From NCBI GenBank assembly GCA_014695325.1, contig JACJNZ010000015.1, positions 1 to 64,000 on the forward strand: a stretch of 64,000 nucleotides of DNA, read 5' to 3'. Below are positions 43,924-64,000 of the stretch, in pieces. Under the pieces are notes generated by a model. The model saw only the letters and a list, made by a program, of their open reading frames with translations, ran no database searches and was not told the DNA's origin. The DNA comes from Cyanobacteria bacterium FACHB-502 (lineage in GTDB: Bacteria > Cyanobacteriota > Cyanobacteriia > Elainellales > Elainellaceae). The position numbers were made by a program, and so were the translations under genes. How positions within the stretch are numbered: the first letter of the stretch is position 1; every line of letters begins with the position of its first letter.

Positions 43924-45069
43924 TCAAGCCGCGATCGACTTTTGCTTACTTTTCGCTGATTTTCGCTTCGGCTTTTCCGCTTCGGGCTGCAGGGCTGCGG
44001 TGTAAGCTTCTAGGACGGCGAGTACGGCGCGTTCTTCCTGACGGAGTTGATATTTAGCAGCTTCCACAGCTTCGATCGCCTCTTCAAGCTCGATTAGCGA
44101 TTGGGTCAGGTCGAACAGCTTTTCTTCCAGGTAGGCATCCAGAATACTGGGGTGGACGTAGTATTTGCGACAAGTGGCTGGACGATTGCCCAGGCGTTTA
44201 GCGGTGTTTTTGATGGCTTCGGTAACGTTCTTTTTTGCCTGAGTTTGAGAAGAAAACAGTCCGATCATGTGCAGTTCTTGCAGGGCATGAACCGTGCCCA
44301 TCCAGGTACGAAAATCTTTGGCAGTGAAGTTCTCTTGGGTAATCTCGTAAAGATAGTCGTTTACGTCTTTAGAGTCGATCGTCTGACGTTCACCGTTTTC
44401 GTCGATGTATTGAAATAATTCTTGCCCCGGTACATCACGACAGGATTTAACAATGCGGGCTAAGCGTCGATCGCCTAATTCAATTTCGTGTTCTACGCCG
44501 CTTTTTCCACGAAAGTGAAATACAATCTTCGTGCTGGTGACTTCGATATGCTCATCGCGCAGCGTGGTGAGTCCAAAAGAATCGTTCGTTTGAGCATATT
44601 CTTCGTTGCCCACTCGGATCAGGGTTTTCTCTAAAAGCTGAACTACAGTTGCCAGCACTTTTTCACGGCGCAGACCGGGCAGGCGCAGATGGCGATCAGT
44701 TTGTTCGCGAATCAGGGGCAACGCCTGAGCAAAGCGCACCATGCGATCGAATTTAGTTTGGCTGCGGATTTTGCGCCAGTCAGCATGATAGCGATACTGT
44801 TTGCGTCCTTTGGCATCGCGTCCGGTTGCTTGCAAGTGTCCGTCGGGTAATGGACAAATCCAAACGTCTGTCCAGGCGGGCGGAATAATTAACGCTTTGA
44901 AACGCTCTAGTTCTTCAGGATCCTGAATCGGACGACCATCTACGCCAAGATACACAAATTCATTTCCCGATCGTTCTCGACGAATGCCGGGAATCGTATC
45001 GCTAACATAGCGTAAACCAACTGCTTTAGCGGACTCGATCGGACTGATAGTAGATTCGGCGCTCAACAT
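43924..45069 (-). CDS. DNA topoisomerase IB
   Basis: This 381-residue enzyme matches bacterial (poxvirus-like) type IB topoisomerases: GRDAKGRKQYRYHADWRKIR with the catalytic Arg, RVGNEEYAQTNDSFGLTTL, FHFRGKSGVEHEIELGDRRL, FRTWMGTVHA, and the nucleophile Tyr in CRKYYVHPSIL. It relaxes supercoils through a 3'-phosphotyrosyl link. The last ~80 residues are a Glu/Lys/Ala-rich helix and a basic tail (KPKRKSAKSKQKS). Topoisomerase IB is found in only part of the bacteria. Confidence 0.95.
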   Translation of the reverse strand: MLSAESTISPIESAKAVGLRYVSDTIPGIRRERSGNEFVYLGVDGRPIQDPEELERFKALIIPPAWTDVWICPLPDGHLQATGRDAKGRKQYRYHADWRKIRSQTKFDRMVRFAQALPLIREQTDRHLRLPGLRREKVLATVVQLLEKTLIRVGNEEYAQTNDSFGLTTLRDEHIEVTSTKIVFHFRGKSGVEHEIELGDRRLARIVKSCRDVPGQELFQYIDENGERQTIDSKDVNDYLYEITQENFTAKDFRTWMGTVHALQELHMIGLFSSQTQAKKNVTEAIKNTAKRLGNRPATCRKYYVHPSILDAYLEEKLFDLTQSLIELEEAIEAVEAAKYQLRQEERAVLAVLEAYTAALQPEAEKPKRKSAKSKQKSIAA

Positions 45070-46405: not shown

Positions 46406-47119
46406 ATGAGTAAACAGGTTATTGATCCACGAATTGCTCGACGAAGTGATCGACGACGCGAAGCCGTAATTAATCCTCATCCCGACCCGATCACCGGAGA
46501 AACTGGATCGCACCCGATCGCAACTGGAATTGGGGCAGGAATTGTCGGCACAATCGGGATGCTGGTGGGTTCTGTGACGGGTCCGGTGGGAGCGATTGCA
46601 GGCGCGGCGATCGGCAGTATTTTGGGTGGATTAGTGGGTAAGAGTGCTGCTGAAGCCACCCATCCAACGATCGAAGATTACGACGTGCAGGTGATTGAAC
46701 CGCGCGATGTTCCCCGTGGAAGTGTTGCCTCGCATCGCCGAATTGAGCCTGTTTCTGTTCAAGCGGTTTATGCTTCTGGGGCCACCCCGCCAACGGTCGA
46801 GCAGTCCATTATTCATGCGGCGCTGCGCGGACGGAATTCTCTGGTTGCTAACGAAGATCAATACTGGCAGCAGCATTACACGGCACAGCCTTACTATCAA
46901 TCGGGGTTGACCTACCGGGATTACCAGCCTGCATATCGTCTGGGCTACGAAGGCTACACGCGCTATCACGGCACAGGCATGAGCTACGACGAAGTTGAAC
47001 CCGAACTTCAGCAGCAGTATGAGCAAGAGCGGCGATTGTCCTGGTTAGGTTGGGAGCAAGCCCGTCCTGCGGTGAGAGCAGGCTGGCATCGACTCGAGCA
47101 GGCATTTCGCGGTCGCTAA
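46406..47119 (+). CDS. Glycine-zipper protein
   Basis: This 237-residue protein has a glycine-zipper hairpin at about residues 36-78 (GIGAGIVGTIGMLVGSVTGP, GAIAGAAIGSILGGLVG), which inserts into or oligomerises at membranes. The C-terminal third has a bacterial repeat-like pattern of aromatic and acidic residues (YRDYQPAYRLGYEGY, then LGWEQARPAVRAGWHRLE) seen in many stress-related proteins of unknown function. Its stop overlaps the convergent glycosyltransferase stop by 3-4 nt. Confidence 0.85.
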   Translation: MSKQVIDPRIARRSDRRREAVINPHPDPITGETGSHPIATGIGAGIVGTIGMLVGSVTGPVGAIAGAAIGSILGGLVGKSAAEATHPTIEDYDVQVIEPRDVPRGSVASHRRIEPVSVQAVYASGATPPTVEQSIIHAALRGRNSLVANEDQYWQQHYTAQPYYQSGLTYRDYQPAYRLGYEGYTRYHGTGMSYDEVEPELQQQYEQERRLSWLGWEQARPAVRAGWHRLEQAFRGR

Positions 47120-48228
47120 TCCTTAGGACGAGGCACTTTCAATCGGGGAACTGGGGGACGATCGAGCAACTCTCGCCAGAGGGTTTCGTAGCGGCACGTC
47201 ATCGTTCCCACTGTGAAGTGAGCCAGAGCCGTATCGCGGGCTTGCTTGCCGAGCTGATGCCGAAATTCGGGATTGTCTCGCAGGCGTTTGAGCGATCGAG
47301 TTAAGCCGTCTACATCGTTTTTGTCGATCAGCAGCCCTGTTATCCCATCTTGAATCGCTTCCGGCATACTGCCAACTCGGGTTGCAATCACCGGACGCGC
47401 CGCCAGCATTGCTTCGACCATTGCCAGGGGAAACCCTTCCGATCGTGAAGGCATCGCCACCACGTCAAACTGGGGCAAATAAGACTGCGGGCGATCGACC
47501 CATCCTGGCATTTCCACTCGATCGCGAATGCCCAGATCGCTTGACAGCTTTTCCAGATTCGATCGTTCGCCTCCATCCCCCAAAATCACTGCCCGCACCT
47601 GAGGAACCTGCGCCACTGCCCGCAGCAAAATATCGTGTGCCTTCATCGCATCGAGTCGTCCGATACTGCCGACGGTGATTTGTGCTGGGTTCTGATATGC
47701 AGGCAACTCCGGTTCGCCCCCATCCGGCACCCCGTTAGGAATGGAAATCACGCTGTTTCTGCCCAGCGCGTAGAAATCTTCCATCTTAGTTGTGCTTGCC
47801 TGACCCACTGCCACATGAGCATCCGATCGCAAACAAAGGGCACGAGTTCGCCACAGGGTCAGCATATCCGTTGTCCGCAGGGGAAGCTGATCGACCCGCA
47901 CCACCCGCACCTTAGGTAAGGACAGAGCTGCAGCTAAACCGATCGCCCCCGCCCAGGGTGTACACAAGTTGCAGTGAATAATATCAGGATGTAGCTGTTG
48001 AAATGTGCGGCGATGTTCTAAGAATGCTCCTATACCAGAAGCAGGAAGAATAAAGCGATCGATCTCTGAACGACTCGCAGCAATAAAATGAACAACCTTT
48101 TCATCAACACCCACAACAGTCAGATGAATTTCTGAAGAAACGGTTGCAGCCAGATGCGATAAACTGATCTCCGCGCCGCCAATTCCCGCAGAGTCTGTAT
48201 AAACAGTGACGCGCAAAGGTGAAGTCAT
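47116..48228 (-). CDS. GT4-family glycosyltransferase
   Basis: This 370-residue GT-B enzyme is of the GT4 type: N-terminal DSAGIGGAEISLSHLA, IIHCNLCTPWAG, then the donor-binding half with VGSIGRLDAMKAHDILLRA, VEMPGWVDR and SRSEGFPLAMVEAMLAARPV (the E-x7-E motif) followed by VGSMPEAI. It adds a sugar from a nucleotide sugar to a growing glycan in the cytosol. It is the last gene of the twelve-gene island, 7 nt after the preceding glycosyltransferase. Confidence 0.92.
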   Translation of the reverse strand: MTSPLRVTVYTDSAGIGGAEISLSHLAATVSSEIHLTVVGVDEKVVHFIAASRSEIDRFILPASGIGAFLEHRRTFQQLHPDIIHCNLCTPWAGAIGLAAALSLPKVRVVRVDQLPLRTTDMLTLWRTRALCLRSDAHVAVGQASTTKMEDFYALGRNSVISIPNGVPDGGEPELPAYQNPAQITVGSIGRLDAMKAHDILLRAVAQVPQVRAVILGDGGERSNLEKLSSDLGIRDRVEMPGWVDRPQSYLPQFDVVAMPSRSEGFPLAMVEAMLAARPVIATRVGSMPEAIQDGITGLLIDKNDVDGLTRSLKRLRDNPEFRHQLGKQARDTALAHFTVGTMTCRYETLWRELLDRPPVPRLKVPRPKD

Positions 48229-48235
48229 TTCTCTT

Positions 48236-49444
48236 TCAACTCACATCGCGATAGATTTGCAAATGTTTCTCAGCGATATCTGACCAGGAAAAAGACTGGC
48301 TGAACTCACAACCCACCTGAGCAAGATTTTGACGCAGTGAAGCATCAGACAGAATATGAGTAAGCGCAATCGTTAATTCTTCAACGGAACGGGGAGGGAT
48401 AAAATAAGCGATCGAATCTGGCAATTCTGGATCAGGTGGACTTGCATAAGTCGCAATAACAGGAAGTTGATGCTGCATTAATGCCAGAAGCGAACCGCTC
48501 TTGAGCGTCACGCCATGATTAAAAGGTAAGACTCCGATATCTATACCTGATAAGTAGTCGGATACCGATCGCTCATCTAAATATCCGGTCATGTGAACGC
48601 TTGGTTGAAGTTGAAGAGAAGCAATGTGAGACTCTAATTTTTCCCAGTAGCGATCGGCTTCTGTACCTCGCAGTGCCAAACTTTCTACACCGCCGATCAG
48701 AAGCAGTTTTGCTCGCGGAATTTGAGTGATTACTTGCTGAAAAGCAGACAGCAGCGTTTCCAGTCCTTTTACCGGGTGCAGGAAGCCGAAAAACGCCACA
48801 AGCAGCGAATCGTTTGACCAGTTTAACCGCTGAAGAATTCGTAATTTTGCGTCGGTTTTATTGTGTTTTGCTTGCTCGATGTTGGGGGCGATCGGGATGC
48901 GATGGAGCCTTTCTTTTAGGGCAGGAAGCCGTTTAACGATCACTTGTTCTGCATCATGGTTTGTCGTAATTACGGCATCACTCAACGTGAGCAGAAAGCC
49001 GTCTTCCTCATCCCACCAGCCGCGCTGCTGTCCCCATTGCTTGAGGCGATCGAGCCACTGGGCAGGAAAATAGTCTGGCTCCCAGTTCCACCAGCCGTAT
49101 TCGTGAATGGTGGTGACAATCGGCTTGTGCCAGCACGTAAGCCGCAGCAGCAAAGGCAGCAGAAAAATCGATCGATCGAAGCCGTAGGTTCCCGCTGCGT
49201 GTTGCAGGTGCAGCAGGTCTGCGTCGGTTTGATGAACTGCCCGAACCAGGGAAAAAAGTTCGGTGATGTGCCAGCGATCGATCGCGCCTTTCACGGTTCG
49301 CTCACTGCCATTTGCAACCGATCGAGTGGTAAGGACGATCGACTCAACCCCGGATAGAGCCAACCTTTCGCGCAGATGCTGAGTGTAGTGTGCAACTCCG
49401 CAGCGATCGGGCTGGTAGGTTCCGGCAATCAGGGCGACACGCAT
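48236..49444 (-). CDS. GT4-family glycosyltransferase
   Basis: This ~402-residue GT-B enzyme has YQPDRCGVAHYTQHLRERLA at the N-terminus, LLHLQHAAGTYGF, IVTTIHEYGWWNWEP and a C-terminal donor domain with VAFFGFLHPVKGLETLLSA and HMTGYLDE. The usual E-x7-E region is diverged (GIDIGVLPFNHGVTLKSGSL), so donor or reaction may differ from standard GT4. The ATG at 49444 shares one base with the stop of the double-GT9 gene (TGATG), so translation is coupled; a TTG two codons earlier is the other option. Confidence 0.88.
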   Translation of the reverse strand: MRVALIAGTYQPDRCGVAHYTQHLRERLALSGVESIVLTTRSVANGSERTVKGAIDRWHITELFSLVRAVHQTDADLLHLQHAAGTYGFDRSIFLLPLLLRLTCWHKPIVTTIHEYGWWNWEPDYFPAQWLDRLKQWGQQRGWWDEEDGFLLTLSDAVITTNHDAEQVIVKRLPALKERLHRIPIAPNIEQAKHNKTDAKLRILQRLNWSNDSLLVAFFGFLHPVKGLETLLSAFQQVITQIPRAKLLLIGGVESLALRGTEADRYWEKLESHIASLQLQPSVHMTGYLDERSVSDYLSGIDIGVLPFNHGVTLKSGSLLALMQHQLPVIATYASPPDPELPDSIAYFIPPRSVEELTIALTHILSDASLRQNLAQVGCEFSQSFSWSDIAEKHLQIYRDVS

Positions 49445-51648
49445 CAGCAATTCTCCACAAAGGGAAGTTCAGATTCCAGAACAGGTTCCAGGACAGGTTT
49501 CAGAACAGAGAGGGCAGCCTGCACGATCGCTTCTGGCTCGATATCCAGACACTCCAGGTGGTAGGGACAGGCAAAGGCATAGCAGGGGCTACACACCGTC
49601 GGACGACGCAGCAGCCGAGAAGGACTATAGCGGGGTTGCCACTGGCACTCGTATTCGGTTCCGGCAAACATGACGACATTGGGCACTTGCAGCGCATCCA
49701 CGATATGCATGGTTGAAGTGTTGTTGGTCAACACCAGTTTTGCGTTGGCAATCAGGGCAACCAGTTCCGGCAGGGTTGTCATTCCCATCAGGTCAACCGC
49801 TCGATCACCCAAAATCGATAAAATCTCCTGCGATCGATCGCGGTCTTTTTCAACGCCGGTGACAATCACTGACCATCCGGTGAGGTCGCTGAGACGACGG
49901 GCAGCTTCCGCAAAACGATCGGGGGCATAGTTGCGCGACTGGCAAGTTGTCCATGGATTGAGCAGCAGGTAGGGTGTTTCAGCAGGGATGCCTCTGGTAT
50001 GCAGCAGATGAGCGATCGCGGTTTGTGCTTCTGGAGAAATGTGCAGCGACAGGGCGCGATCGGTGACGGTAAACCCGATCGACTCGACTAGCCGCAGATT
50101 GCGATCGACCTGATGAATTTCGTCGGGAGCAGGCGGAACAGCATGGGTGAGCGTTCCCAGATCGGTTTCTTTGGATTCGCCCAGTCGTAGAGGAATGCCT
50201 GCCAGCGCACAAATGAGAGCTGCCGGATGGGGACTCTGGCTAAAGCTAGTGAGAATGATGACAGCATCAAATTGCCTTTGTCGCAGCCTGTCGATCAAGT
50301 TCCATTCTCGTGCCGGGTCAAAGTCCAGCCGTCCGAGATCCTGCCACAGCACCCGCCAAGGCAATCCTGCATCAATCCAGGGCAGCAAAGGTTCCGTGAG
50401 CATTCCGCCTGGACTTGCCATCAGCGTAATCTTTGCATCAGGCAGATTTTCCCGCAAGGCACGTAGCGTTGGGGTTGTCATCATCACATCGCCGATGTTG
50501 TCCAGCCGCATCACCAGCAGATTCTTCACCGATCGCCAGTCAGAATTTGACTCCGTGGGGGAGGGGGGCAAGGGCGTTAAAGAGGCAATGGCTCCTAAAG
50601 GGGAACTGCTTCGCCTTGGATCAGGAGCTATTTCTTTGCAACGGGACAGCAGCGATCGCGCAGCCTCCAACACTTGCGCCGGAGTAATTTCATCCAGGCA
50701 GGTTTGCCATTCCAACGGACAGTTGCCGCTATACCAGCAGGCTTGCTCGGTGAAATTGTGAATTCGACGATCGCCGCACTGCGGATAGCCCTGAAGATTT
50801 ACATGGGGTTCCGGCTGCCCATAGCGTCCGTGCCAGGAAGGTCCAAATAAGGTGATAGTGGGCGCGTTGACTGCTGCCGCAATTCGCACGGGTCCGGTAT
50901 CCGCTCCGATGACCAGATCGGCAAACGAGAAAGCGGCTGCTAACTGCCGCAAACTACCCCGCTCCCAAAGTGAAACTTTGCCGTCTGAACCATTGCCACC
51001 TATTGCCTCTGCGATTTGCACTGTCTGATCGCGATCGGCTCCCACCACAATCTGAATCGATGCGCTGTACTGCTGCTGAAGGGCTTGCCCAAGCTGCACA
51101 AAATCAGCCTCCGCCCAGCGTTTGATTGCCATTCCCGCATCAATGCAGAAGAACACCAGTGGACGATAAGCTGCCCCGAGCTGCCGCTGTGCCTCCAGCT
51201 TCTCCGATACCGTCAGATGAAGCTCTGCCTGACGCTGCATCAACGCTGGCTGGATCAGTCCCTCTTGCTGAAGGATCGCCAAAAATCGATCGCTCACCAA
51301 TTCATTCTCAGGCGGCGATCGCCAAAGATTCGTGGCGACCTGCTCCGCGTTTGACTGCTGTACCGCTTCTGCAATGCCGTCATAGGTGGTATCCGTGACG
51401 ATAAGATCAAACGATTCGCTGGCAAGCAGGCGATCGAGCGAAGCTCTTGCCTCGCCCCGTGGTGCAATCACAACCTGATCGATCAGCGGATCGGTCTGCA
51501 AAAGCTGATCCCCAGGAGCAAAGGTGAGAACCGTGACACGAGCTGCTGGATGGGACTTTGCCAGTGCATGAATTGCAGGCAGCGCAATGATCAAATCACC
51601 AATGCCGCCCAGGAGTTCGATGAAGAGGATGCGGTAGGTGTCACCCAT
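49444..51648 (-). CDS. Double GT9 glycosyltransferase (two heptosyltransferase-like modules)
   Basis: This 734-residue protein carries two complete GT9 modules. Module 1 (about 1-335) has LLGGIGDLIIALPAIHAL, FADLVIGADTGPVRIAAAV and ITLFGPSWHGRYG. After a Pro/Ser-rich linker (about 345-370), module 2 (about 373-715) has MRLDNIGDVMMTTPTLRAL, NPWTTCQSRNYAPDRFAEAA, LVLTNNTSTMHIVDAL and VMFAGTE. GT9 enzymes are mostly heptosyltransferases using ADP-heptose. Each module has the N-terminal GDxxxxxP loop and the C-terminal donor region, so one polypeptide might add two sugars in turn. Confidence 0.92.
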   Translation of the reverse strand: MGDTYRILFIELLGGIGDLIIALPAIHALAKSHPAARVTVLTFAPGDQLLQTDPLIDQVVIAPRGEARASLDRLLASESFDLIVTDTTYDGIAEAVQQSNAEQVATNLWRSPPENELVSDRFLAILQQEGLIQPALMQRQAELHLTVSEKLEAQRQLGAAYRPLVFFCIDAGMAIKRWAEADFVQLGQALQQQYSASIQIVVGADRDQTVQIAEAIGGNGSDGKVSLWERGSLRQLAAAFSFADLVIGADTGPVRIAAAVNAPTITLFGPSWHGRYGQPEPHVNLQGYPQCGDRRIHNFTEQACWYSGNCPLEWQTCLDEITPAQVLEAARSLLSRCKEIAPDPRRSSSPLGAIASLTPLPPSPTESNSDWRSVKNLLVMRLDNIGDVMMTTPTLRALRENLPDAKITLMASPGGMLTEPLLPWIDAGLPWRVLWQDLGRLDFDPAREWNLIDRLRQRQFDAVIILTSFSQSPHPAALICALAGIPLRLGESKETDLGTLTHAVPPAPDEIHQVDRNLRLVESIGFTVTDRALSLHISPEAQTAIAHLLHTRGIPAETPYLLLNPWTTCQSRNYAPDRFAEAARRLSDLTGWSVIVTGVEKDRDRSQEILSILGDRAVDLMGMTTLPELVALIANAKLVLTNNTSTMHIVDALQVPNVVMFAGTEYECQWQPRYSPSRLLRRPTVCSPCYAFACPYHLECLDIEPEAIVQAALSVLKPVLEPVLESELPFVENC

Positions 51649-51662
51649 AGATCTAACACCAA

Positions 51663-52469
51663 TTAAATTGAAAGCAACTGTGGTGCATCATTATGCCGAT
51701 CGTGAATGGTTGTAGGAATCTCCTGGTGATACACGCCGGAGGGCATCACACCACAGCCACCGTAGGTAGACATGACTCGAAGCTGCGCCAATACGTCTTC
51801 GCCGCAGTGGTTTTCTGGCAGGTCACGCCAAAACTCGAAACTGCCCACGTTTAGCAATTTGGCCCGATCGTATAAAACGCAGCCGCCGATCCAGGCAACG
51901 CGATATTTGCGGGGGCGATCGGGCGTAATGTTATGCTGCTGCTGGACGTGATAGAGATTTGCGGCGTTGTGTAGTTTATATCGCTCCCATTGGGGCGTTC
52001 CCGATCGCACGATTTCTGGCTCAACTGCTCCTTCCCACCACTCCAAAATTTGCTGATGCGGACGGACATCCTGCTTGAAGCTTAAACCGATCACCGCCGA
52101 GCCGACAAAACCACACTGCTCCTGCTGAATCGTCTGCATGAGTAGCCCGATGACCCACGGTTCTAGAATGAGATCATCGTCCAGAAACAGCACATAGGGA
52201 GCCGTTGCCTGATCGAGGAGAAATTGCCGATGTTCTGCGAGGCCGCGCCGAGGTAGATGCCTGTGGGTGGCGATCGAATGTCCGTGTGCTTCCAGAACGC
52301 GCAGGGCTGCAATCACTTCTCCAGACTGGAATGTGTTGTTCGTTTCGGTTTGATCGGAAACAATCACGCGAAAATTAGTAAACGTCTGAGCGCACAGACT
52401 GGTTAACGTGACTGCTAAGGCAGCAGAACGATTACAGGTTGGAATCAGAACATCTAAAGCCGGATTCAT
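51663..52469 (-). CDS. GT2-family glycosyltransferase
   Basis: This 268-residue GT-A enzyme has LDVLIPTCNRSAALAVTLTS, the nucleotide-binding loop VIVSDQTE, PRRGLAEHRQFLLDQATAPY and the metal-binding LFLDDDLIL. A later acidic residue in ENHCGEDVLAQLR could be the catalytic base. There are no membrane helices. It lies 14 nt upstream of the double-GT9 gene. Confidence 0.9.
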   Translation of the reverse strand: MNPALDVLIPTCNRSAALAVTLTSLCAQTFTNFRVIVSDQTETNNTFQSGEVIAALRVLEAHGHSIATHRHLPRRGLAEHRQFLLDQATAPYVLFLDDDLILEPWVIGLLMQTIQQEQCGFVGSAVIGLSFKQDVRPHQQILEWWEGAVEPEIVRSGTPQWERYKLHNAANLYHVQQQHNITPDRPRKYRVAWIGGCVLYDRAKLLNVGSFEFWRDLPENHCGEDVLAQLRVMSTYGGCGVMPSGVYHQEIPTTIHDRHNDAPQLLSI

Positions 52470-52529: not shown

Positions 52530-53645
52530 CTAACAAGGAATTAAAGAGCCAGTATCGATCGCAGGAGATATATCTACCTCAGAGAGCAATTCGATCGCCG
52601 CCTTAACGACATCATCGGGATCAACAAGTCGCAAACAGTGGTGATGTTCTTCAGGACAAACGCTCTTATAACAAAGGCGACAGGGAACTTCATGATACAG
52701 AACACGATTGGGAACACGCCAGGGAGTATGCTGAAGATTCGTTAGTGCATATAGGTCTACCACAGGCGTACCCACCGCAGCCGCCAAGTGAGCGGGTCCA
52801 GTGTTATTAGAAATAAGCAGTGGGGCGATCGACAACAACGCTGCCATCTCCGATAAATTGAGGCGATCGACCAGCGAAACAGAATTTGCCTGCATTTCCG
52901 TCTGGATGAACTGCACCAGTTCCCGTTCCGGCGTGGTTCCCGTCAAAATTACCTGCAAGCCGAATTCCTGCACGAGTCGCCGCGCTGCGATCGCAAACAG
53001 CTCGGGTGGATAGCGACGCGAAGGAGCCGTTGCCCCTGGATGAATCACGACCCACGGCTGCTGTAAATCTACCCCCTGAGCTGCTAACAGGTGGCGAACG
53101 CGATCGACTGCTTCTGCGGGGATCTGGAGCTTCATGCGATCGTCTTCGAGGCTGAAGCCAACACTGCTGACCAGATCAAGCTGTCGCTGTACCTCATGGC
53201 GAATCATCTGTTCCGGTTCCGGGTCTTTGATCCAGTTGGTGAGCAACTGATAGGAATTTTCGTGACAGTGCGCCAGCCGCAAAGGAATATCTGCCATGTA
53301 ACACAAAAACGCCGACGGCAAAGGATTTTGGCTGTAAACGGTAAAGATAACGGCAGCATCAAACTGCCTCGATCGCAGCCGCTCGATCATTTGAAATTCA
53401 GGCTGGCTATTGGGTCGTGGTGCGGTCGCTTTGAGCCAGGGAGCATCGTAAACAATCACGTCATCGATTTCGGGGATCAGGGGGGCGATCGTTGCACCGG
53501 CCTGAGAAGTCATTAGCGTGATTCGGCGAGGAGAATCAGAAGATGTTTTTAAGGCACGCATTGCAGGCGCAGTCATTAACACATCGCCGATCGAATCCAG
53601 CCGAACGCAGAGAATATTTTGGGCAGTGTTCCAGGAAATAGACAT
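52530..53645 (-). CDS. GT9-family (heptosyltransferase-like) glycosyltransferase
   Basis: This 371-residue protein is a full-length GT9 enzyme: VRLDSIGDVLMTAPAMRAL, VYSQNPLPSAFLCYMADIPL, WVVIHPGATAPSRRYPPELF (donor-side motif), LLISNNTGPAHLAAAVGTPV and a Cys-rich tail (CRLCYKSVCPEEHHHC) that might bind a metal, similar to module 2 of the double-GT9 protein. It follows the HldE gene by 33 nt, which supports ADP-heptose as its donor. Confidence 0.92.
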   Translation of the reverse strand: MSISWNTAQNILCVRLDSIGDVLMTAPAMRALKTSSDSPRRITLMTSQAGATIAPLIPEIDDVIVYDAPWLKATAPRPNSQPEFQMIERLRSRQFDAAVIFTVYSQNPLPSAFLCYMADIPLRLAHCHENSYQLLTNWIKDPEPEQMIRHEVQRQLDLVSSVGFSLEDDRMKLQIPAEAVDRVRHLLAAQGVDLQQPWVVIHPGATAPSRRYPPELFAIAARRLVQEFGLQVILTGTTPERELVQFIQTEMQANSVSLVDRLNLSEMAALLSIAPLLISNNTGPAHLAAAVGTPVVDLYALTNLQHTPWRVPNRVLYHEVPCRLCYKSVCPEEHHHCLRLVDPDDVVKAAIELLSEVDISPAIDTGSLIPC

Positions 53646-53678: not shown

Positions 53679-55178
53679 TTAGCGATAAAGCTGGGGTGGA
53701 GATGGGGCAGCAGAAACAGAACGAATTTGCTCGATCGTGCGCGTGGTCGATCGATTTTCTACAAACGAGAGAATGTGAACAACACCGCCCAATTGCTCAA
53801 CCAGGGGAGCTTCCGGCAATGTTTCTCGCGTATAGTCTCCGCCTTTAACAAACACATTGGGGCGAATGATTTCAATCAAATGGTGGGGAGTCAATTCAGA
53901 AAAAGGAATCACATAATCCACGGATTCCAAAGCAGTTAAGACGGTGAGGCGATCGTCTAACGCATTCACAGGTCGCCCCATTCCCTTAAGCTGACGCACG
54001 CTTTCATCGCTGTTCACGCCGACAATCAGCACATCACCCAACGCTTTTGCCTGCTGTAGGTAAGTGACATGACCGGAATGCAGCAAATCAAAGCAGCCGT
54101 TGGTAAACACAATTCGTTTTCCAGCAGTGCGGTGTGCTTCAAGGCAGCGAACGATTTGAGCGCGATCCAGGATTCGCTTGTTTGATACCGCAGGACGATC
54201 GGGCTGGAACTGCTGCCGTAATTGATTCGCTGTGCAAACGCTGGTTCCAGTTTGCTGTACCACTATCTGCGTTGCTGTCTTGGCAATCTGAGCCGCGATC
54301 GACACCGAAGCCTGCGCCGCCAAACTCAATGCCAGAGCTGTAATAAACGTATCACCCGCCCCAGAAGTGTGATTCGCAGGCACAGGCTGAGCTGGAATCT
54401 GAATCGGAGAACTCCCCGTCTGAAATAAAACTGCGCCTTCGCTATCCAACGTTACCGCAACGATTTTCGCGCCTGTGAGTTCCAACAATCGATCGCCACA
54501 AGGCAAAACTTGAGCCACCCGATCGCCCTTCTGAACAGGCAGTTCGAGGAGGCGGATTGTTTCCCCATAATTCGGCTTGACTGCCGTAGGTTTGACGCGC
54601 TGATAATTCGCAAGCTGCTTGGAATCGATCACCAAAGTTCGATCGTGCTGTGCCTGTAATTGGGCGATCGTCTCAATTAATCGCGGCGTGAGAATGCCAT
54701 AGCCATAATCGGAGAGAATCACTGCATCCACTTGCGGAAAAAGCTGCGTCAGGCGATCGATTATCCCTGTTTCCAGCTCTGCTGAAATTGCCGCCGTGCT
54801 GCCCTGATCAAACCGCAGCAAAATCTGATTTTGTGACACAATCCGCTGCTTTGCCAGCGTCGCCCGATCGTGCGAAACGATCAAATGATTTCCCTCAAGC
54901 GATCGCTGCTGGAGGCTGTGCAAAAGCCGATCGCCTTCCGAGTCCTGCCCAATCACTGACAATAAAACTGGACGTGCCCCAAACGCTGCCACATTCGCCG
55001 CCACATTTGCCGCCCCGCCGGGAAAATCCTGTCGCTGATCAATCGCCACAACCGGGACTGGAGCCTCCTGACAAAGGCGATTCGCATCCCCAGCCAAATA
55101 CGCATCCAGCATAACATCGCCAACCACCAGGACGCTAAATGACGACCAGCGATCGATCGAAGAAAGCAAATCGTTCAT
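53679..55178 (-). CDS. hldE: HldE: heptose-7-phosphate kinase / heptose-1-phosphate adenylyltransferase
   Basis: This 499-residue bifunctional enzyme has an N-terminal PfkB-type kinase (about 1-320: DFPGGAANVAANVAAFGA, catalytic HTSGAGDTFITALAL) and a C-terminal nucleotidyltransferase (about 345-490: TNGCFDLLHSGHVTYL with HxGH, then VKGGDYT and the ENRSTT loop). It makes heptose 1,7-bisphosphate and later ADP-D,D-heptose. The ATG at 55178 overlaps the GmhB stop as ATGA; a TTG two codons earlier is less likely. Confidence 0.95.
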   Translation of the reverse strand: MNDLLSSIDRWSSFSVLVVGDVMLDAYLAGDANRLCQEAPVPVVAIDQRQDFPGGAANVAANVAAFGARPVLLSVIGQDSEGDRLLHSLQQRSLEGNHLIVSHDRATLAKQRIVSQNQILLRFDQGSTAAISAELETGIIDRLTQLFPQVDAVILSDYGYGILTPRLIETIAQLQAQHDRTLVIDSKQLANYQRVKPTAVKPNYGETIRLLELPVQKGDRVAQVLPCGDRLLELTGAKIVAVTLDSEGAVLFQTGSSPIQIPAQPVPANHTSGAGDTFITALALSLAAQASVSIAAQIAKTATQIVVQQTGTSVCTANQLRQQFQPDRPAVSNKRILDRAQIVRCLEAHRTAGKRIVFTNGCFDLLHSGHVTYLQQAKALGDVLIVGVNSDESVRQLKGMGRPVNALDDRLTVLTALESVDYVIPFSELTPHHLIEIIRPNVFVKGGDYTRETLPEAPLVEQLGGVVHILSFVENRSTTRTIEQIRSVSAAPSPPQLYR

Positions 55179-55801
55179 CGGCAAATCGGAGGGAGAGTGG
55201 ATGGAAAAGGGAACGAAAGAGAGAAATCAGAACGATCGATTGCGAGAATCACACGAGCAGCCGCACCCAAATCAGAAACAAGATGATGCGGTAAACGCTG
55301 TGGAGATAGCTGCCACTCGGTTTCATTACCGTTATCGATCAAGATAGTGCGACAACCCGCGGCACGTCCGGCAGCCACATCATGCAAAATATCGCCAATA
55401 AACCAGGACGTACTCAGATCAATCTGGTGATCCGCTGCCGCCTGAAGCAGCAAACCCGGCTCCGGCTTTCGACAGGAACAGTTTATCGTATACGGGGCGA
55501 TCGTTCCGTCTGGATGATGCGGACAATAATAAAACCCCGCTAACGGAATCCCAAACCGAGCAAGCTCCCCGGTGAGATGCTGTTGGACGATCGCCAGAGC
55601 CGTTTCCTCAAAATAGCCTCGTGCAATTCCTGACTGGTTCGTAATGATAAACAGCTTGTATCCCGCCTCATGGAGTCGTTGCAAGGCTTCGATCGCCCCT
55701 TCGCACCACTGAATTAAAGCCGGGTCAACGTTGTAGGGAACGTTCTCAATTAGCGTTCCATCTTTATCGAGAAAAACCGCTTTTTGAGGGAGAGTTTGCA
55801 T
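55175..55801 (-). CDS. gmhB: GmhB: heptose-1,7-bisphosphate 7-phosphatase
   Basis: From the ATG at 55801 this 208-residue HAD-IIIA enzyme has motif I FLDKDGTLIE (Asp12, Asp14), FIITNQSGIARGYF, the zinc-site pattern CPHHPDG with NCSCRKPEPG, and motif IV SWFIGDILHDVAAG. It removes the C7 phosphate from heptose 1,7-bisphosphate, the step between the two HldE activities. The frame is open up to 55987 but that part runs through a dispersed repeat and has no family match, so it is excluded. Confidence 0.94.
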   Translation of the reverse strand: MQTLPQKAVFLDKDGTLIENVPYNVDPALIQWCEGAIEALQRLHEAGYKLFIITNQSGIARGYFEETALAIVQQHLTGELARFGIPLAGFYYCPHHPDGTIAPYTINCSCRKPEPGLLLQAAADHQIDLSTSWFIGDILHDVAAGRAAGCRTILIDNGNETEWQLSPQRLPHHLVSDLGAAARVILAIDRSDFSLSFPFPSTLPPICR

Positions 55802-55869
55802 TGGCAGGTTGCTTTTTTTGATACTGCTAATTGAGTGAGCGGTTTGAGTCAGGGTTCCGGCGTTCCAGA

Positions 55870-55905
55870 TTGCCCCTAAATCCTTTAATTCCTGGAGGGC
55901 TTTGA
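55870..55905 (+). repeat. Dispersed repeat, copy 4
   Basis: TTGCCCCTAAATCCTTTAAT then TCCTGGAGGGCTTTGAAG, just upstream of gmhB. Confidence 0.7.
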
Positions 55906-56010
55906 AGTGGCTTAGCTTGCTTGGCGAACTCATAGAAGTGCCTTGTTGGGGGTTAGGCAAGAGTTTTCCTAACAGTCCTATTTTCACATTTGCAAGTTGC
56001 TCTTCTGAAT

Positions 56011-56079: not shown

Positions 56080-56805
56080 TTAGGGCCAGGAAGACTCCCG
56101 CATCGGAATCACTGTCACCTCTGGAATGACTGTTTCGGCAGGTTGCAGCAGCACATAGCGAATCGTGTCCGCCACATTGCGCGGATCTTGCAGCACATTT
56201 GGATCGAGCTCCGGAAATCGATCGAGCAAGAAAGGTGTTCTCATTCCGCCTGCCACGATCGCCGTTACCTTCACCCCATGCGGACGACCTTCAACGTGCA
56301 GCGCATGGCTCAAACCCATTAGTCCCCATTTACTCGCATGATAGGCAGATGCATTTGCCCAGGTCCGTTTAGCTGCCGTCGATGCCACATTCACGATATG
56401 CCCGCTGCCCTGCTGCTTCATGAGCGGAAAGACCTGCTTTGCCAGAATAAACGGAGCGCGTAAATTCACACTCAAAATTCGATCCCAATCATCGATCCCC
56501 ATTTCTTCGATCGATACCGTTAAATCCGTTCCGGCATTATTCACCAGAACGTCAATTTTGCCGTGCTGATCGATGATTTTTTGAATGCTGGTCTGAATCT
56601 GCTGCTCGTCTGTAATATCTAGCGACAAAGCATACGCCTCTAACCCGCGATCGCGTAGCTTTTGCGTCAACGGCTCTGCCAGATCCATCCGAACGTCCGC
56701 AGCAACAACGATCGCCCCCGCTTCTGCTAAACTCTCACAGATCGCAGCTCCCAAACCGCGTCCGCCACCAGTTACCAGCACTACTTTTCCAGTCAACGTT
56801 TCCAT
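56080..56805 (-). CDS. SDR-family oxidoreductase
   Basis: This 241-residue classical short-chain dehydrogenase has the Rossmann motif TGGGRGLG (12-19), NNAG (89-92) and the catalytic Ser142, Tyr155 and Lys159 (YHASK). It uses NAD(P)H. Its length and classical motifs differ from HldD, the ~310-residue extended-type ADP-heptose epimerase. Its place between the GmhA fusion and GmhB suggests it acts on a sugar of the same pathway, but this is an inference. Confidence 0.92.
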   Translation of the reverse strand: METLTGKVVLVTGGGRGLGAAICESLAEAGAIVVAADVRMDLAEPLTQKLRDRGLEAYALSLDITDEQQIQTSIQKIIDQHGKIDVLVNNAGTDLTVSIEEMGIDDWDRILSVNLRAPFILAKQVFPLMKQQGSGHIVNVASTAAKRTWANASAYHASKWGLMGLSHALHVEGRPHGVKVTAIVAGGMRTPFLLDRFPELDPNVLQDPRNVADTIRYVLLQPAETVIPEVTVIPMRESSWP

Positions 56806-56916: not shown

Positions 56917-58887
56917 TCATCCCCTCACTCCCCCAGCCTTCAACCCCATCCCTTCTACACTCGCCATCGTTCTCTCGTACTGCGGCGTTTCCCACTGTCC
57001 TAATCGAGCCGTTTCATTCGGGGCAGCAGCAAGCAATTGTTCCTCGATCAGTTCGCAGAGCAGGTGCATCACCATCAACTGCACTTCCTGAATGCGCTGA
57101 GTCTCGATCGCCGGAACCACGATCGCAATGTCTGCTAAGTGCCGCAGTTCACCACCCTCTCCGCCGAGTAGGGCGATCGTCGTCAGGTTTGCCCGTCGTG
57201 CAGCTTCAAATGCAGCAATCACGTTTTTCGATCGTCCGCTGGTACTGATGCCGATCAGCAGATCGTGCGGCTGGGCAAAAGTTTCAACCTGACGCGCAAA
57301 GATATTGTCATAGCTGACATCGTTTGCCCAGGCGGTGACAAATGCTGTGTCTGCTGTTAGTGCCATTGCCGGAAGTCCGGCGCGATGGGGACAGCAAAAC
57401 CGCCCAACCAGTTCGGCTGCCAAATGCTGAGCGTCTGCCGCACTGCCGCCATTACCGCAAATCAGCAGCTTACCGCCCCGCAGAAAGCAGTTGCTCATTG
57501 CCTGAGATGCCGCTTGAATTGTCGGACGCAGAAGCCGTTGCGATCGCTGCACTGCTTTGATCACCGTCTCAAAGCCGTGGTCAAGGATTGCCATCTGGTT
57601 TGCCTCGATGCCTGCCACGGTTGAAACCCCGCTCAGCACTTCTTCATACAGGGCTGCGACTGCGCTGGTCACTTTCTGCCAGGTGAAATGCTCCTGACTG
57701 CGGCGAATTGCTTGCCGTCCAAACAGGTTCCGAAGCTGCGGGTTGCCCAGAAGATGCTGAAGCCGATCGGCAAGGGCCTCAGGCTCATTGGGAGGAACGA
57801 GATAACCCGTTTCACCATCTTTCACCGTGAATTTAACGCCGCCCACATTTGCACCGATGACGGGTGTGCCGCAAGCCATTGCCTCGATCGGCGTAATGCC
57901 AAACGGCTCGTACCAGGGAGTAGTCACAAACACATCTGCTGCGCTGTAGTAATACTTCAGCACCTCCCGTCCCCGTCTGCCGACAAAGGAGATTCGCGTT
58001 GCCACACCCAATTCTTGAGCGATCGTGTTGAGTCGCCCAATCTCAGGTGTTAATTGCGGGTCAGGGGTTTCGGCTTCGCCGCCGACAATAATCAGTCGTG
58101 CTGCAACAGGCTGTTCCTGCTGCAATTGCGCTTTTTGCAACTGTTTCTTTTGTAGCTGTGCAAACGCCCGAATCACATTGTCCACGCCTTTTCGCGGAAC
58201 CATTCGCCCCAACTGCAAAATCAATGCTTCATCCGGCGGCAGTCCCAGCGTTAACCGGGCGCGGGTTTTGTCGATCGCCCAAAATTCCAACGGGTCAAAG
58301 CCACAGGGAATAATGCCGATGCGGCTGGGGTGAGCGTGATAGAGATTGAGCAAATCTTCCCGATCCTGCGGACATTCGGCGATGATATGATCTGCTTCCT
58401 GCACAACCCGATCTTCCACCGCAAAGCGATCGTCTGGAAACTGATCGGCATCACCCTGATACAGTCGCCGCACCCGTCCCAGCGCGTGAAACGTCACCAC
58501 AAACGGAATCCCTAAAACCCGTTTCATGTCTGCCGCAACCAGCGCAGACATCCAAAAATTTGCGTGAACCAGATCGTAGGATGTCTGGGAGTGACACCAA
58601 TCCACCATAAATGCGGTGAATTCGTTCATATACGGCAGCAGCTTTTCTTTAGGCATTGCCACCGCTGGACCTGCGGGAACATGAATGACACGCACGCCCT
58701 GTTGCCAATCCACGACTTCCGGCAAATGATCAGCATCACGACGCGTAAACACATCTACGTGATAGCCGATCGCCGCTAGATGCTTTGCCAACTGCCCCAC
58801 ATACACATTCTGTCCACCGCTATCGACACCGCCAAAGATGCCAAGTGGCGTTGCATGTTCGCTAATGAGTGCAATTCGTTTGGTCAT
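56917..58887 (-). CDS. Fusion: GT4 glycosyltransferase + GmhA sedoheptulose-7-phosphate isomerase
   Basis: This 656-residue protein has two enzymes in one chain. Residues 1-420 are a GT4/sucrose-synthase-like glycosyltransferase (GGVDSGGQNVYVGQLAKHL, LGRMVPRKGVDNVIRAF, YEPFGITPIEAMACGTPVIG with Glu327 and Glu335). Residues ~435-620 are a SIS-domain GmhA: CGNGGSAADAQHLAAELVGR with Glu492, GISTSGRSKNVIAAFEAAR, and RIQEVQLMVMHLLCELIEE with Gln600 and His608, the positions used for catalysis in E. coli GmhA. GmhA makes the first heptose intermediate from sedoheptulose 7-phosphate. A short polar tail (621-656) follows. Confidence 0.93.
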   Translation of the reverse strand: MTKRIALISEHATPLGIFGGVDSGGQNVYVGQLAKHLAAIGYHVDVFTRRDADHLPEVVDWQQGVRVIHVPAGPAVAMPKEKLLPYMNEFTAFMVDWCHSQTSYDLVHANFWMSALVAADMKRVLGIPFVVTFHALGRVRRLYQGDADQFPDDRFAVEDRVVQEADHIIAECPQDREDLLNLYHAHPSRIGIIPCGFDPLEFWAIDKTRARLTLGLPPDEALILQLGRMVPRKGVDNVIRAFAQLQKKQLQKAQLQQEQPVAARLIIVGGEAETPDPQLTPEIGRLNTIAQELGVATRISFVGRRGREVLKYYYSAADVFVTTPWYEPFGITPIEAMACGTPVIGANVGGVKFTVKDGETGYLVPPNEPEALADRLQHLLGNPQLRNLFGRQAIRRSQEHFTWQKVTSAVAALYEEVLSGVSTVAGIEANQMAILDHGFETVIKAVQRSQRLLRPTIQAASQAMSNCFLRGGKLLICGNGGSAADAQHLAAELVGRFCCPHRAGLPAMALTADTAFVTAWANDVSYDNIFARQVETFAQPHDLLIGISTSGRSKNVIAAFEAARRANLTTIALLGGEGGELRHLADIAIVVPAIETQRIQEVQLMVMHLLCELIEEQLLAAAPNETARLGQWETPQYERTMASVEGMGLKAGGVRG

Positions 58888-59078: not shown

Positions 59079-60083
59079 TTAGGCTCGGTTCCCCTCCAGA
59101 ATCGACTTGCCAGAGCGGTGGCTCGAATTGAAACCTCCTTTCAAACTCATTGCCTGTTCAAACGCCGCATTCCAATTGCGGACAAATCGCTCGATCCCAA
59201 AGCGCGATCGTGCCTGTTCTTTGGCTCCCTGGCTCAGTCGATGGGCAGCTTCGGGGTTATCGATTAGCATTTGCATTCGATCGACTAAGGCATTCACGTT
59301 AGTATCCACAAATCCAGACACATCGTTTTCCACGACCGTTGCCAGTTCTGTTGTTGCCAGCCCCACGATCGGCATTCCCAGCATCATTGCTTCACAAACT
59401 GCTAATCCCAGGCTGGTATAGCGCACCGGATGAAAGAAAAAACGATATCGCGCTTCAAACGCAGGAAGCTGAAGATGCGTGACTTCACCAATGCCGCCCA
59501 GCGATTCTGCGTCCATGCCGACTAAATCGAGGGGGATCGATCGCTTCACCTGCTCAAAAATATCTGCGCCCAGCCGTCTACCGCGCTTCCGCAAACCGTT
59601 CGCTACCACGATCCCGCGCGGTAATTCTCCGGTGTAGGTAACCCGATCAGGAACAACGACACCATGCTCAACAACACAGGTTGGGGTGCGGTTGTTCTGC
59701 CACATCAGTTGATTGAAATGGGTGACGTGAACCAGCAGCGTTTCCGGGTCGTCTACCCAGTGGGCGGTATCGGTGGGCTGTTCGCGAGGTGGGTCATGTT
59801 CCAGATACAGGCGCGGCAAATCTCGCTGTGCTTCGGAAAGAATGTCGTACTGATCTTCCTGGTAATTGCGGCGCGACTGAAACAGAATACAGTCAAACTG
59901 CTGATGCTGCACTTCCTCGGCGGGAATATCATGCACATTCTCACCCCAGGGAAATCCGCCCAGCCGTCCGCCGTATCCTTCAGGTTTGCCCGGCTTGACA
60001 GGCAGATAGAAATCGTGGGGAGCCTGAGTCAGATAATACAAATAGCTGCCGTGAACGTGCCAGGTGAGAATTTTCAAACGCAT
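59079..60083 (-). CDS. GT4-family glycosyltransferase
   Basis: This 334-residue protein has an N-terminus with ILTWHVHGSYLYYLTQAPHD, a middle with CVVEHGVVVPDRVTY and a donor domain with FHPVRYTSLGLAVCEAMMLG, then VGLATTELATVV and NDVSGFVDTN. The E-x7-E motif is reduced (one Glu in VCEAMM), but the fold is GT4. It lies between the half-GT9 gene and the GmhA fusion. Confidence 0.88.
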   Translation of the reverse strand: MRLKILTWHVHGSYLYYLTQAPHDFYLPVKPGKPEGYGGRLGGFPWGENVHDIPAEEVQHQQFDCILFQSRRNYQEDQYDILSEAQRDLPRLYLEHDPPREQPTDTAHWVDDPETLLVHVTHFNQLMWQNNRTPTCVVEHGVVVPDRVTYTGELPRGIVVANGLRKRGRRLGADIFEQVKRSIPLDLVGMDAESLGGIGEVTHLQLPAFEARYRFFFHPVRYTSLGLAVCEAMMLGMPIVGLATTELATVVENDVSGFVDTNVNALVDRMQMLIDNPEAAHRLSQGAKEQARSRFGIERFVRNWNAAFEQAMSLKGGFNSSHRSGKSILEGNRA

Positions 60084-60132: not shown

Positions 60133-60666
60133 TTAAGCCATCGCTGTATCAGCCGGCTGCACCGGGAAAGAAGAAGACGAAATCAAATGAATCGTCTGAG
60201 CAGGAATCAAATTAACCGATCGCAGCAAATGAAGCTGATACTCCAGAGCATCAACCGGATCAAGCGGCGGCTTAACGCAGTGTGACAAAACCCCACCGCC
60301 AAACTCACAGGACTGGCCCACACGAATCGGAATGCCTGCAAGATAGCAACAGTATGCTATGAGATAAGGAGACTGTTGCGGCAGGGTGAATACGATCGCA
60401 GCATCAAACGATCGCGCTTTAAGACTCTGAATCAGACTGCTTGCGTGATCGGTCAGATCGAAAAAAGGAGAAGGAAAAGGAATCAGATCTAGCGTGGCAA
60501 GCTGTTGATCAAATAACGAATCTGGAAATGCGGCAAGAACAGAAATGCTAGTCTCCGGCAGGCTTTGCTGAAGCAGCGGCAAACTTTGAATCAATTCAGA
60601 TTGACTGTCCTGATCCAAAAGACTCACCAAGAGAAGCCGCTTGACGCGCTGCCAATCAGGATGCAT
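60133..60666 (-). CDS. Half-length GT9-like protein (N-terminal domain only)
   Basis: This 177-residue protein aligns with the acceptor-side half of GT9 enzymes in the same island: VKRLLLVSLLDQDSQSELIQ (the loop that is normally GDxxxxxP has lost its Gly-Asp), FDAAIVFTLPQQSPYLIAYC and AGIPIRVGQ. It stops where the donor-binding half would begin. Its start overlaps the upstream GT9 stop by 11 nt. It could be a decayed enzyme or a protein that helps a partner GT9. Confidence 0.8.
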   Translation of the reverse strand: MHPDWQRVKRLLLVSLLDQDSQSELIQSLPLLQQSLPETSISVLAAFPDSLFDQQLATLDLIPFPSPFFDLTDHASSLIQSLKARSFDAAIVFTLPQQSPYLIAYCCYLAGIPIRVGQSCEFGGGVLSHCVKPPLDPVDALEYQLHLLRSVNLIPAQTIHLISSSSFPVQPADTAMA

Positions 60667-61720
60667 AAGACACCTCCTCGATGTGCAGCAAATTCAACGC
60701 TTCCCGCAAAACTTGCATCGGCGTTGCTGGCGGATACAGATGGGCATTTTCCAGCGACGGCATCACCACAATTTTGTGACGATCGCGATCGAGCGGTGCC
60801 CAGCGATGCGGTTCAGACTGCGAGAAAATTACCACACTTTTGACCTGAACTGCTGCCCCTAAATGCGAAACCCCAGTGTCGTTACAAATCAGCAAGCCTG
60901 CCTGCTGCAATAGCAACGCGAGTGCCCCCAAACTCGTTTTTCCTGCCAGGTCAATTGCTGGATACTGCATTGTCTCTGTCACTTTTTGAGTTAGCCCTTT
61001 TTCATCAGCCGTTCCCGTCAGCACAATCTGAAAATCCTGAGCCGCCAACGCATCCGCAACGACAGCAAAATGCTCGCAGTTCCAGCGGCGATCGGCGGTA
61101 CTGGCTCCCGGATGGATGCAAATGTAGGACTTCGGGCGAAGCTGATAAGCTTTCAAAATAGTGTTGCACTCGTCGCGATCGGCAGCAGTGATAGGAAACT
61201 CCAGCGATTCTCCCTGCGTAGCAAGGCCCAAAAACTTCAGCAAATGGAGAGGTCGCTGCACTTCAGGCAAATGCTCTGGGTAGGGCAAAAACCAGTCGAT
61301 ATGGGGGCAGAACTGCCGCTGCGGAAAAAAGCCTGCCGTGCGTTTTGCACCCAGCAGCAGCGTAAAGCTATTCATTGCCGAACCGTTGCCGTGCATTTGT
61401 AGTGCCAGATCGAACGGCGCCTGCTGCACCTGCTGCATAAAAGCGATCGTCTGCTCTGCTACAAAAGGCACTTCGGGAATGCCAGGATAGCCGGGAAACT
61501 CCAGCCAGCGATCGAGATAGGCACTGAATCGCTGCACAAACGCCTTTGTCCAGGGCAGCCCAATCAACGTAATCTCTGCGGCAGGAAACACCGATCGCAA
61601 GGCACGAAAAGCAGGCACACTGCACAGCAAATCGCCTAATCCCGGCAGCGCACGTACGATCGCAATTCGCTGGGGGGCAGGGTCATCAAATTGAAGATGT
61701 CCACTGATCAAAGTCTCCAT
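60656..61720 (-). CDS. GT9-family (heptosyltransferase-like) glycosyltransferase
   Basis: This 354-residue GT9 enzyme is the first gene of the island: VRALPGLGDLLCSVPAFRAL, LALQMHGNGSAMNSFTLLLG, ICIHPGASTADRRWNCEHFA and LLICNDTGVSHLGAAVQVKS, with SEPHRWAPLD near the end. It differs from the other GT9 members in the acceptor half, so it probably acts on a different acceptor. The promoter of the island should lie in 61721-61900. Confidence 0.92.
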   Translation of the reverse strand: METLISGHLQFDDPAPQRIAIVRALPGLGDLLCSVPAFRALRSVFPAAEITLIGLPWTKAFVQRFSAYLDRWLEFPGYPGIPEVPFVAEQTIAFMQQVQQAPFDLALQMHGNGSAMNSFTLLLGAKRTAGFFPQRQFCPHIDWFLPYPEHLPEVQRPLHLLKFLGLATQGESLEFPITAADRDECNTILKAYQLRPKSYICIHPGASTADRRWNCEHFAVVADALAAQDFQIVLTGTADEKGLTQKVTETMQYPAIDLAGKTSLGALALLLQQAGLLICNDTGVSHLGAAVQVKSVVIFSQSEPHRWAPLDRDRHKIVVMPSLENAHLYPPATPMQVLREALNLLHIEEVSYAS

Positions 61721-62614: not shown

Positions 62615-63838
62615 TTATCGGTAGCTATTTTGACTTTGAAGCGATCGAAGTAACAGACACAGCCGCATCTGCACCGCATCGTCAAACTTTCTTGGCTCCA
62701 ATCCGGTTAGCGAAGCAATTTTATCAAGCCGATAGCTGAGTGTATTGCGGTGAATTGATAGCTGCTTTGCAGTTGTAGAAGGACAGCAGTTTTCAGCAAA
62801 GAAGGTGTTTAACGTAACCAATAATTCAGGCTCATGATCGAGCGGACTGAGTAGATATTTAGCGAGATCAATCTTCGTTTCTTCGTCTGCAACGCCCACA
62901 AAGGCAGCAATCCCCAACTCACCCAGGCAATGGACTTGATTATCGCCCTGCAATCGCTTTCCTAAAGACAGGGCGGCCCCTGCATCTTCATAAGAGCGTG
63001 CCAGTCCCCGCACGCCGGGATGATATCGACCAATGCCAACATTAATCGTCGCGCCCATGTCGTTTCTGAGCCGCAGCAACAGCGCATCCGCCGCCCGCTT
63101 GAGAGCCGCTAAATTTGCCCAGGAAGAACTCAATCCTTCAGCCACATCGTTACAGTCTGCCCACAGCCCCAGGTTTTTGCTGTTGCTGGCTTTTAAGACT
63201 GCTACTTCGCCTTCACCCAGATAAGCGCAAATCGTGTCATTCGGCAGGTGAAAAAAGCTAACAATACTGCTAATCACGACCTGTGCCCGTCGCTGCTCAA
63301 TCTCAACTGCTTCCATCCCCGAAGCATTCATTTGAGGCAAGATATAACAGGCAGCATCAATGAGAATCACAGCCCTGGGTGGAGACAAATCAATCCCCAA
63401 TCGTTTTGCTCGATTCCAGATGATTGTTTCATCCTCAATGCGATCGTGTAGCAGATCGTCGATTAATTCATTCTTGAGTTCATGTTGACTTGGAAGATGA
63501 TGCTGTGTGGATTGATTAATCACCAGTTCAACCAATGCTTGAGCAAGGCGAGGAGAAATCATTTCACGATCGGCAGGCTTGCCAACAATTACTTCTCCGG
63601 TTTCGGTGTCATGCTGTAGCGGAATTCTGAGGAAATGAGACAGTGCCTGTTTGCCGTCCCAGTTGCTTGCCTCGCAGTTTCCCAAAGGAGTAATCGATCG
63701 CCCAACTCGGTCAGGTTCGCTGCTCGTGACAACCACTCCTCGTTCATTCGTGACAAAAACAGGAGCATAAAGCAGTTCTGCAACGCGATCGGTGACAACG
63801 CTGGCAAGCTGCACAAAACGGCTAGAGGTTTGAATCAT
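62615..63838 (-). CDS. CdaR/PucR-type transcriptional regulator
   Basis: From the ATG at 63838 this 407-residue protein has an N-terminal sugar-diacid-recognition-like domain (about 1-130: LYAPVFVTNERGVVVTSSEP, DRVGRSI, ALVELVINQ), a central GGDEF-like domain (about 170-290) with VGIGRYHPGVRGLARSYEDA, and a C-terminal helix-turn-helix of the PucR type (KQLSIHRNTLSYRLDKI). E. coli CdaR activates diacid sugar (glucarate, glycerate) genes; the targets here are not in the window. An earlier ATG at 63865 is possible. Confidence 0.88.
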   Translation of the reverse strand: MIQTSSRFVQLASVVTDRVAELLYAPVFVTNERGVVVTSSEPDRVGRSITPLGNCEASNWDGKQALSHFLRIPLQHDTETGEVIVGKPADREMISPRLAQALVELVINQSTQHHLPSQHELKNELIDDLLHDRIEDETIIWNRAKRLGIDLSPPRAVILIDAACYILPQMNASGMEAVEIEQRRAQVVISSIVSFFHLPNDTICAYLGEGEVAVLKASNSKNLGLWADCNDVAEGLSSSWANLAALKRAADALLLRLRNDMGATINVGIGRYHPGVRGLARSYEDAGAALSLGKRLQGDNQVHCLGELGIAAFVGVADEETKIDLAKYLLSPLDHEPELLVTLNTFFAENCCPSTTAKQLSIHRNTLSYRLDKIASLTGLEPRKFDDAVQMRLCLLLRSLQSQNSYR

Positions 63839-64000
63839 GAATGCGTTGTGGCTAGGAATTCCCATTGCAGAAAACAAAACGTGAATTAGATTTAGAAGTC
63901 GCTGATTACTCGGCAAGAAAACTGCTTGGCAGGGAGAATAGAGTACGCCGCAGAAATCAAAAACTAAATCTGAATCACGAAAAAATATTGAAGGAACCTT
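63839..64000. promoter_or_regulatory. Upstream region of the CdaR-type gene
   Basis: The last 162 nt hold the leader and probably the promoter of the regulator. No other gene is seen before the window ends. Confidence 0.4.

Follow-up and report, generated by a model that had tools for sequence, protein, structure and literature searches.

The protein analysed here joins members of two known enzyme families. GmhA isomerases, such as those of B. pseudomallei (2xbl) and P. aeruginosa (1x92), carry a SIS_2 domain with a set of metal-site and catalytic residues (D, H, E, Q, H), and most known GmhAs form tetramers in which subunits share the active sites (PMC7705670). On the side of the GT4 glycosyltransferases, the nearest characterised enzymes are the sucrose-phosphate synthase of Thermosynechococcus (TeSPS, Tll1590; 6kih), in which R105 and R178 bind the phosphate of sucrose 6-phosphate (S6P; PMC7264703), and the D-inositol-3-phosphate glycosyltransferase MshA (3c48/3c4q). 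A literature search reaching few subscription journals returned no description of a GT4-GmhA fusion or of the gene cluster reported below. The proteins themselves will already be present in the sequence databases; new are the joining of the two domains, its fixation as the only form of GmhA, and a cluster extending over three phyla.

In the window, i.e., the whole 64,000-nt stretch of Cyanobacteria bacterium FACHB-502 that was analysed, both domains lie on one minus-strand gene, with its ATG at 58,887, its stop at 56,917 and no internal stop in 656 codons (Table 1); when its bases were shuffled 200 times, the longest open stretch was 210 codons. The preliminary description had reported a single 656-residue chain with exactly these coordinates, leaving the strand unstated. 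All Pfam matches scored above gathering thresholds (Glyco_transf_4/Glycos_transf_1 at residues 24–395, SIS_2 at 442–575). An assembly or frameshift artefact is ruled out by dozens of orthologous fusions, with the junction open in many species, and a separate GmhA translated from an internal start by the lack of conservation of the Met at residue 432. A sigma-70 scan found no promoter excess.

Table 1. Positions in the window of the fusion gene, its parts and the genes around it.
Feature	Positions	Strand	Evidence
GT4 half, residues 4–419, sucrose-phosphate-synthase/MshA-like, GT-B fold	57631..58878	-	Pfam, PDB matches, AlphaFold model
Linker, residues 420–435	57583..57630	-	conservation 0.43, pLDDT <50 at 422–443
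GmhA-type SIS isomerase half, residues 436–620	57028..57582	-	SIS_2, NF010546, TIGR00441, catalytic residues
C-terminal tail, residues 621–656, and stop codon	56917..57027	-	conservation 0.38, pLDDT <50
GT9 heptosyltransferase-like, first of run	60656..61720	-	profile matches; gap -11 to next gene
Short half-GT9 protein	60133..60666	-	no Pfam match; GT9 queries match the region in related loci
GT4 glycosyltransferase directly upstream of fusion	59079..60083	-	Pfam; kept together with fusion-type GT4 in three phyla
Classical SDR oxidoreductase	56080..56805	-	Pfam adh_short; syntenic in cyanobacterial clusters
GmhB-type heptose-bisphosphate phosphatase (HAD)	55175..55987	-	NF006506 153 bits, below cut-off of 178; syntenic
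HldE, heptose-7-phosphate kinase and heptose-1-phosphate adenylyltransferase	53679..55184	-	TIGR02199 above cut-off; NF008454 411 bits; syntenic
GT9 heptosyltransferase	52530..53645	-	TIGR02195 just above cut-off
GT2 glycosyltransferase	51663..52469	-	Pfam; syntenic
Tandem double GT9 protein, 734 aa	49444..51648	-	two GT9 stretches
Two further GT4 genes (48236–49450 and 47116–48228)	47116..49450	-	gaps -7 and +7 bases
PucR-type regulator	62615..63916	-	Pfam; usually adjoins cluster in relatives, orientation varies

The fusion is not peculiar to its source genome and occurs in many filamentous cyanobacteria. The GT4-SIS order, for which a search in other genomes had been proposed, was found in 17 of the 36 genomes of the host order, including the source, with the other copies 64–94% identical to the one at 56,917–58,887 and the named relatives belonging to Leptolyngbyaceae. 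A class-level draw recovered it in 48 of 388 genomes, these 48 coming from six families and 31 of the 48 from outside the host family, whereas an independent phylum-level draw yielded only 2 full-length fusions besides the source genome's own; its frequency is thus strongly dependent on sampling. Alignment of 35 distinct full-length fusions (59–93% identity) gave a mean conservation of 0.73–0.80 for the GT4 blocks and 0.75–0.81 for the GmhA core, well above the values of the linker and tail (Table 1).

A few draft genomes split the gene over two frames. The breaks all fall within the GT4 half, and one spans an N, so we did not take these copies as separate genes. They could speak for the reading that the GT4 half is inactive or merely a scaffold and that the protein acts simply as GmhA, as could a decayed locus that retains a GmhA frame and no GT4 frame (L118). 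However, the breaks come from draft assemblies, the GT4 half is conserved like the GmhA half, and all its catalytic residues are invariant, which makes this reading very unlikely.

The C-terminal half is of the GmhA type by several measures. Its SIS_2 domain (PF13580) scored 92.7 bits against a cut-off of 27, a PDB search with this half matched the GmhA of several proteobacteria, and D485, H488, E492, Q600 and H608, corresponding to D61, H64, E68, Q175 and H183 of B. pseudomallei, are kept in all 10 fusions aligned for this purpose. This bears out the claim that the catalytic Glu, Gln and His positions are intact. Differences from the free enzymes 2xbl and 1x92 are its position behind a GT4 domain in a 656-aa chain and scores below the NCBIfam equivalog cut-offs (TIGR00441, 189.6 vs 209.45; NF010546, 205 vs 276 bits). 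The GmhA equivalog cut-off was passed by none of the 36 host-order genomes and by just 2 of 14 control genomes. Across the host order every GmhA match with E < 1e-50 sits inside a fusion frame (17/36 genomes); a free gmhA turned up in none of the 36. The fusion is therefore the only GmhA of these cells, and the heptose pathway, if running, passes through it.

In the host order the fusion nearly always has HldE and GmhB next to it. HldE was found in all fusion-bearing genomes of the host order but one, in which the contig stops near the fusion; among the genomes of the order that have no fusion, no full-length HldE of this type was found, and two contain partial frames. Since no match above the TIGR02197 cut-off for the 6-epimerase HldD was present in the 36 host-order genomes, ADP-D-glycero-D-manno-heptose, the D-glycero form, may be the final donor and be used directly.

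In the GmhA tree the fused halves form one clade (support 100/97) that includes the decayed L118; its sister group was not resolved. The remaining free cyanobacterial GmhAs (L115–L132, apart from L118) stand in a different context, being without this cluster: most have at best a gmhB neighbour, and one also has hldE. At L118 itself the GT4 half is lost, and the GmhA remnant stands beside the C-terminal part of a GT4 of the kind encoded at 59,079.

The N-terminal half is most similar to TeSPS (6kih), followed by MshA (3c48), in PDB searches. An AlphaFold model built from an 11-sequence alignment (pLDDT 73, pTM 0.66) predicts two domains joined via a long helix (residues 427–469) that opens the GmhA half, with low confidence at 422–443. 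Its GT4 half superimposes on 6kih with a Z of 41.3 and an rmsd of 2.9 over 392 residues; sequence identity to TeSPS is 36%, and the matches listed in the fold searches were GT4 chains only. H134, R228, R232, K233, E327 and E335, of which R228 and K233 are donor-binding positions, are in common with TeSPS and invariant in 35/35 fusions, in agreement with the preliminary description of a GT4-type transferase with an intact Glu327/Glu335 (EX7E) motif. The TeSPS ligand set is represented as well: K80 (Lys for Arg) and R154 are equivalent to R105 and R178, and H134 and E327 to the catalytic H158 and E331. K80 and R154, which have equivalents also in MshA, an enzyme for a phosphorylated type of acceptor, are invariant in 35/35 fusions and in 10/10 GT4s of the non-cyanobacterial clusters described below; generic GT4s taken as a control mostly failed to align over this N-terminal region.

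These resemblances, i.e., the best PDB matches and the donor and catalytic residues in common, could mean that the fusion is a sucrose-phosphate synthase or MshA orthologue merely equipped with a GmhA tail. The phylogeny argues otherwise, as the cyanobacterial, actinobacterial and Burkholderiales GT4s of heptose clusters form one clade (100/97) apart from both SPS and MshA. Furthermore, the half reaches 297 bits against the MshA equivalog TIGR03449 (cut-off 462.5, missed by 165), the locus lacks a mycothiol context, and the acceptor site is altered: Phe111 and Ala135, fixed throughout the fusions, replace the Tyr and Ser/Thr near the acceptor-phosphate site of SPS (Tyr and Ser in TeSPS) and MshA, positions that in MshA contact the phosphate. 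Tree and scores rule the half out as the cell's own SPS or MshA, and such an orthology is highly improbable. An Arg141 is added in the fusions, and Arg or Lys stands there in 10/10 non-cyanobacterial cluster GT4s. We infer that this retaining GT4 constitutes a distinct subfamily akin to sucrose-phosphate synthase and MshA and that its acceptor is anionic, probably bearing a phosphate.

The fusion gene belongs to a run of genes that share one strand and are spaced -11 to 191 bases apart, in the order GT9, half-GT9, GT4, fusion, SDR, GmhB, HldE, GT9, GT2, double GT9, GT4, GT4. Nearly all of the long cyanobacterial loci examined preserve the core of this order, up to the double GT9, and the cluster seems to build a heptose-containing glycan. 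This context agrees with the suggestion that the fusion links the supply of heptose with the assembly of a glycan: the only GmhA is encoded together with HldE, GmhB and several GT9 heptosyltransferases. The PucR-type protein is a candidate regulator of the cluster. The short protein at 60,133–60,666 is related to GT9 enzymes over their N-terminal half and is syntenic; it corresponds to half a heptosyltransferase without the donor domain. The two halves of the double GT9 match separate places in L070, L098, L104 and L111. Farther along the minus strand, at 43,924–45,069, lies a bacterial type IB DNA topoisomerase (Topoisom_I, Top1B_N_bact).

Relatives outside the cyanobacteria were located by a plasmid search, and frequencies there refer to plasmid records only. 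In two Streptomyces, an Arthrobacter and a Nonomuraea, the same GT4 adjoins a separate SIS gene and an rfaE/HldE gene, and genes for GT9, GmhB and the GT4 type encoded at 59,079 are nearby in 3 of these 4 loci. The actinobacterial GT4-SIS-rfaE2 run (Streptomyces NZ_CP071045, NZ_CP023408) resembles the fusion locus in its GT4 clade, its GmhA-type gene, its HldE and, in most cases, its GT9s; it differs in consisting of two genes where the fusion is one, in the replacement of the GmhA metal-site Asp by Gln or Glu, and, in Streptomyces, in a carbamoyltransferase. The two genes of Streptomyces CA-256286 overlap by an ATGA that contains both the GT4 stop and the SIS start. Burkholderiales clusters (Paraburkholderia NZ_CP134198 and others) encode a GT4 52–55% identical to that of the fusion, GmhB, two GT9s and the 59,079-type GT4 but, unlike the fusion cluster, also a carbamoyltransferase and a UDP-glucuronate decarboxylase. 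No gmhA or hldE was found within the fetched stretches of these loci; thus, joining of GT4 and GmhA is not required for function.

Several accessory genes accompany these clusters. The carbamoyltransferase recurs in the Streptomyces and Burkholderiales versions (L133, L134, L135, L141–L143), whereas among fusion genomes of the host order it was present in one only (G419), on another contig. Relatives of the SDR are found in the Nonomuraea, Arthrobacter and Cupriavidus clusters. Stress-type genes lie near clusters of several phyla, namely BON-like, DUF2267 and PspA-like (L138, 8,000–13,000), BON, DUF2795, DUF4142 and DUF892 (L136), and CsbD and STAS (L133), which hints that the glycan may be involved in stress.

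Taken together, we consider it likely that the conserved heptose-glycan cluster has in the fusion a bifunctional enzyme, which both supplies heptose 7-phosphate and places one sugar of the glycan. The C-terminal half, as the only GmhA of the cell, would convert sedoheptulose 7-phosphate to D-glycero-D-manno-heptose 7-phosphate; the neighbouring HldE and GmhB would carry this on to ADP-heptose, the presumed donor of the GT9 heptosyltransferases encoded in this run. As this glycan is put together, the GT4 half would add a sugar to its anionic acceptor. The most likely origin of the fusion is a merger of adjacent genes of the kind that actinobacteria still keep apart. Joining probably fixes a 1:1 ratio and co-localises both enzymes on the isomerase tetramer, which would bear four GT4 arms and thereby offer both activities in equal dose and in the same place.

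Channelling of intermediates, which had also been proposed, was not borne out in that form, as the reactions of the two halves do not follow directly on each other. Heptose 7-phosphate still needs the HldE kinase, GmhB and the HldE adenylyltransferase, so direct channelling is not implied; it would require a heptose or heptulose phosphate as the GT4 acceptor. According to such a scheme, the GT4 half would glycosylate sedoheptulose 7-phosphate or heptose 7-phosphate, as SPS does fructose 6-phosphate, and the halves would share a metabolite and yield a phosphorylated heptose disaccharide priming the glycan. This would agree with the phosphorylated polyol or ketose acceptors of TeSPS and MshA, with the invariant K80 and R154, and with the clade-specific basic residue at 141 next to R140. 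On the other hand, F111 and A135 depart from the SPS/MshA pocket and the Burkholderiales GT4 is kept without a neighbouring gmhA, and we regard shared substrates as unlikely. That the GT4 half is an SPS-like enzyme whose acceptor is a heptose or heptulose phosphate produced, or bound, by the isomerase half of the same chain, and so starts a soluble or primed heptose glycan, is quite unlikely; if true, it would represent a novel type of sugar-phosphate disaccharide synthase common to cyanobacteria, actinobacteria and Burkholderiales.

Cyanobacterial LPS has been described as being without heptose (PMC4515613); the fusion lineage nonetheless keeps a complete-looking ADP-heptose route to the D-glycero form, with an entry enzyme that exists solely fused to a transferase, and that description raises the question of where the fusion-derived heptose goes. 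The GT4 subfamily, combining an SPS/MshA-like basic pair with an altered pocket, represents a testable new acceptor specificity. Moreover, the fusion offers a single-gene handle on the heptose glycan and ties it to the matching clusters of Burkholderiales and of actinobacteria, which are organisms without LPS.
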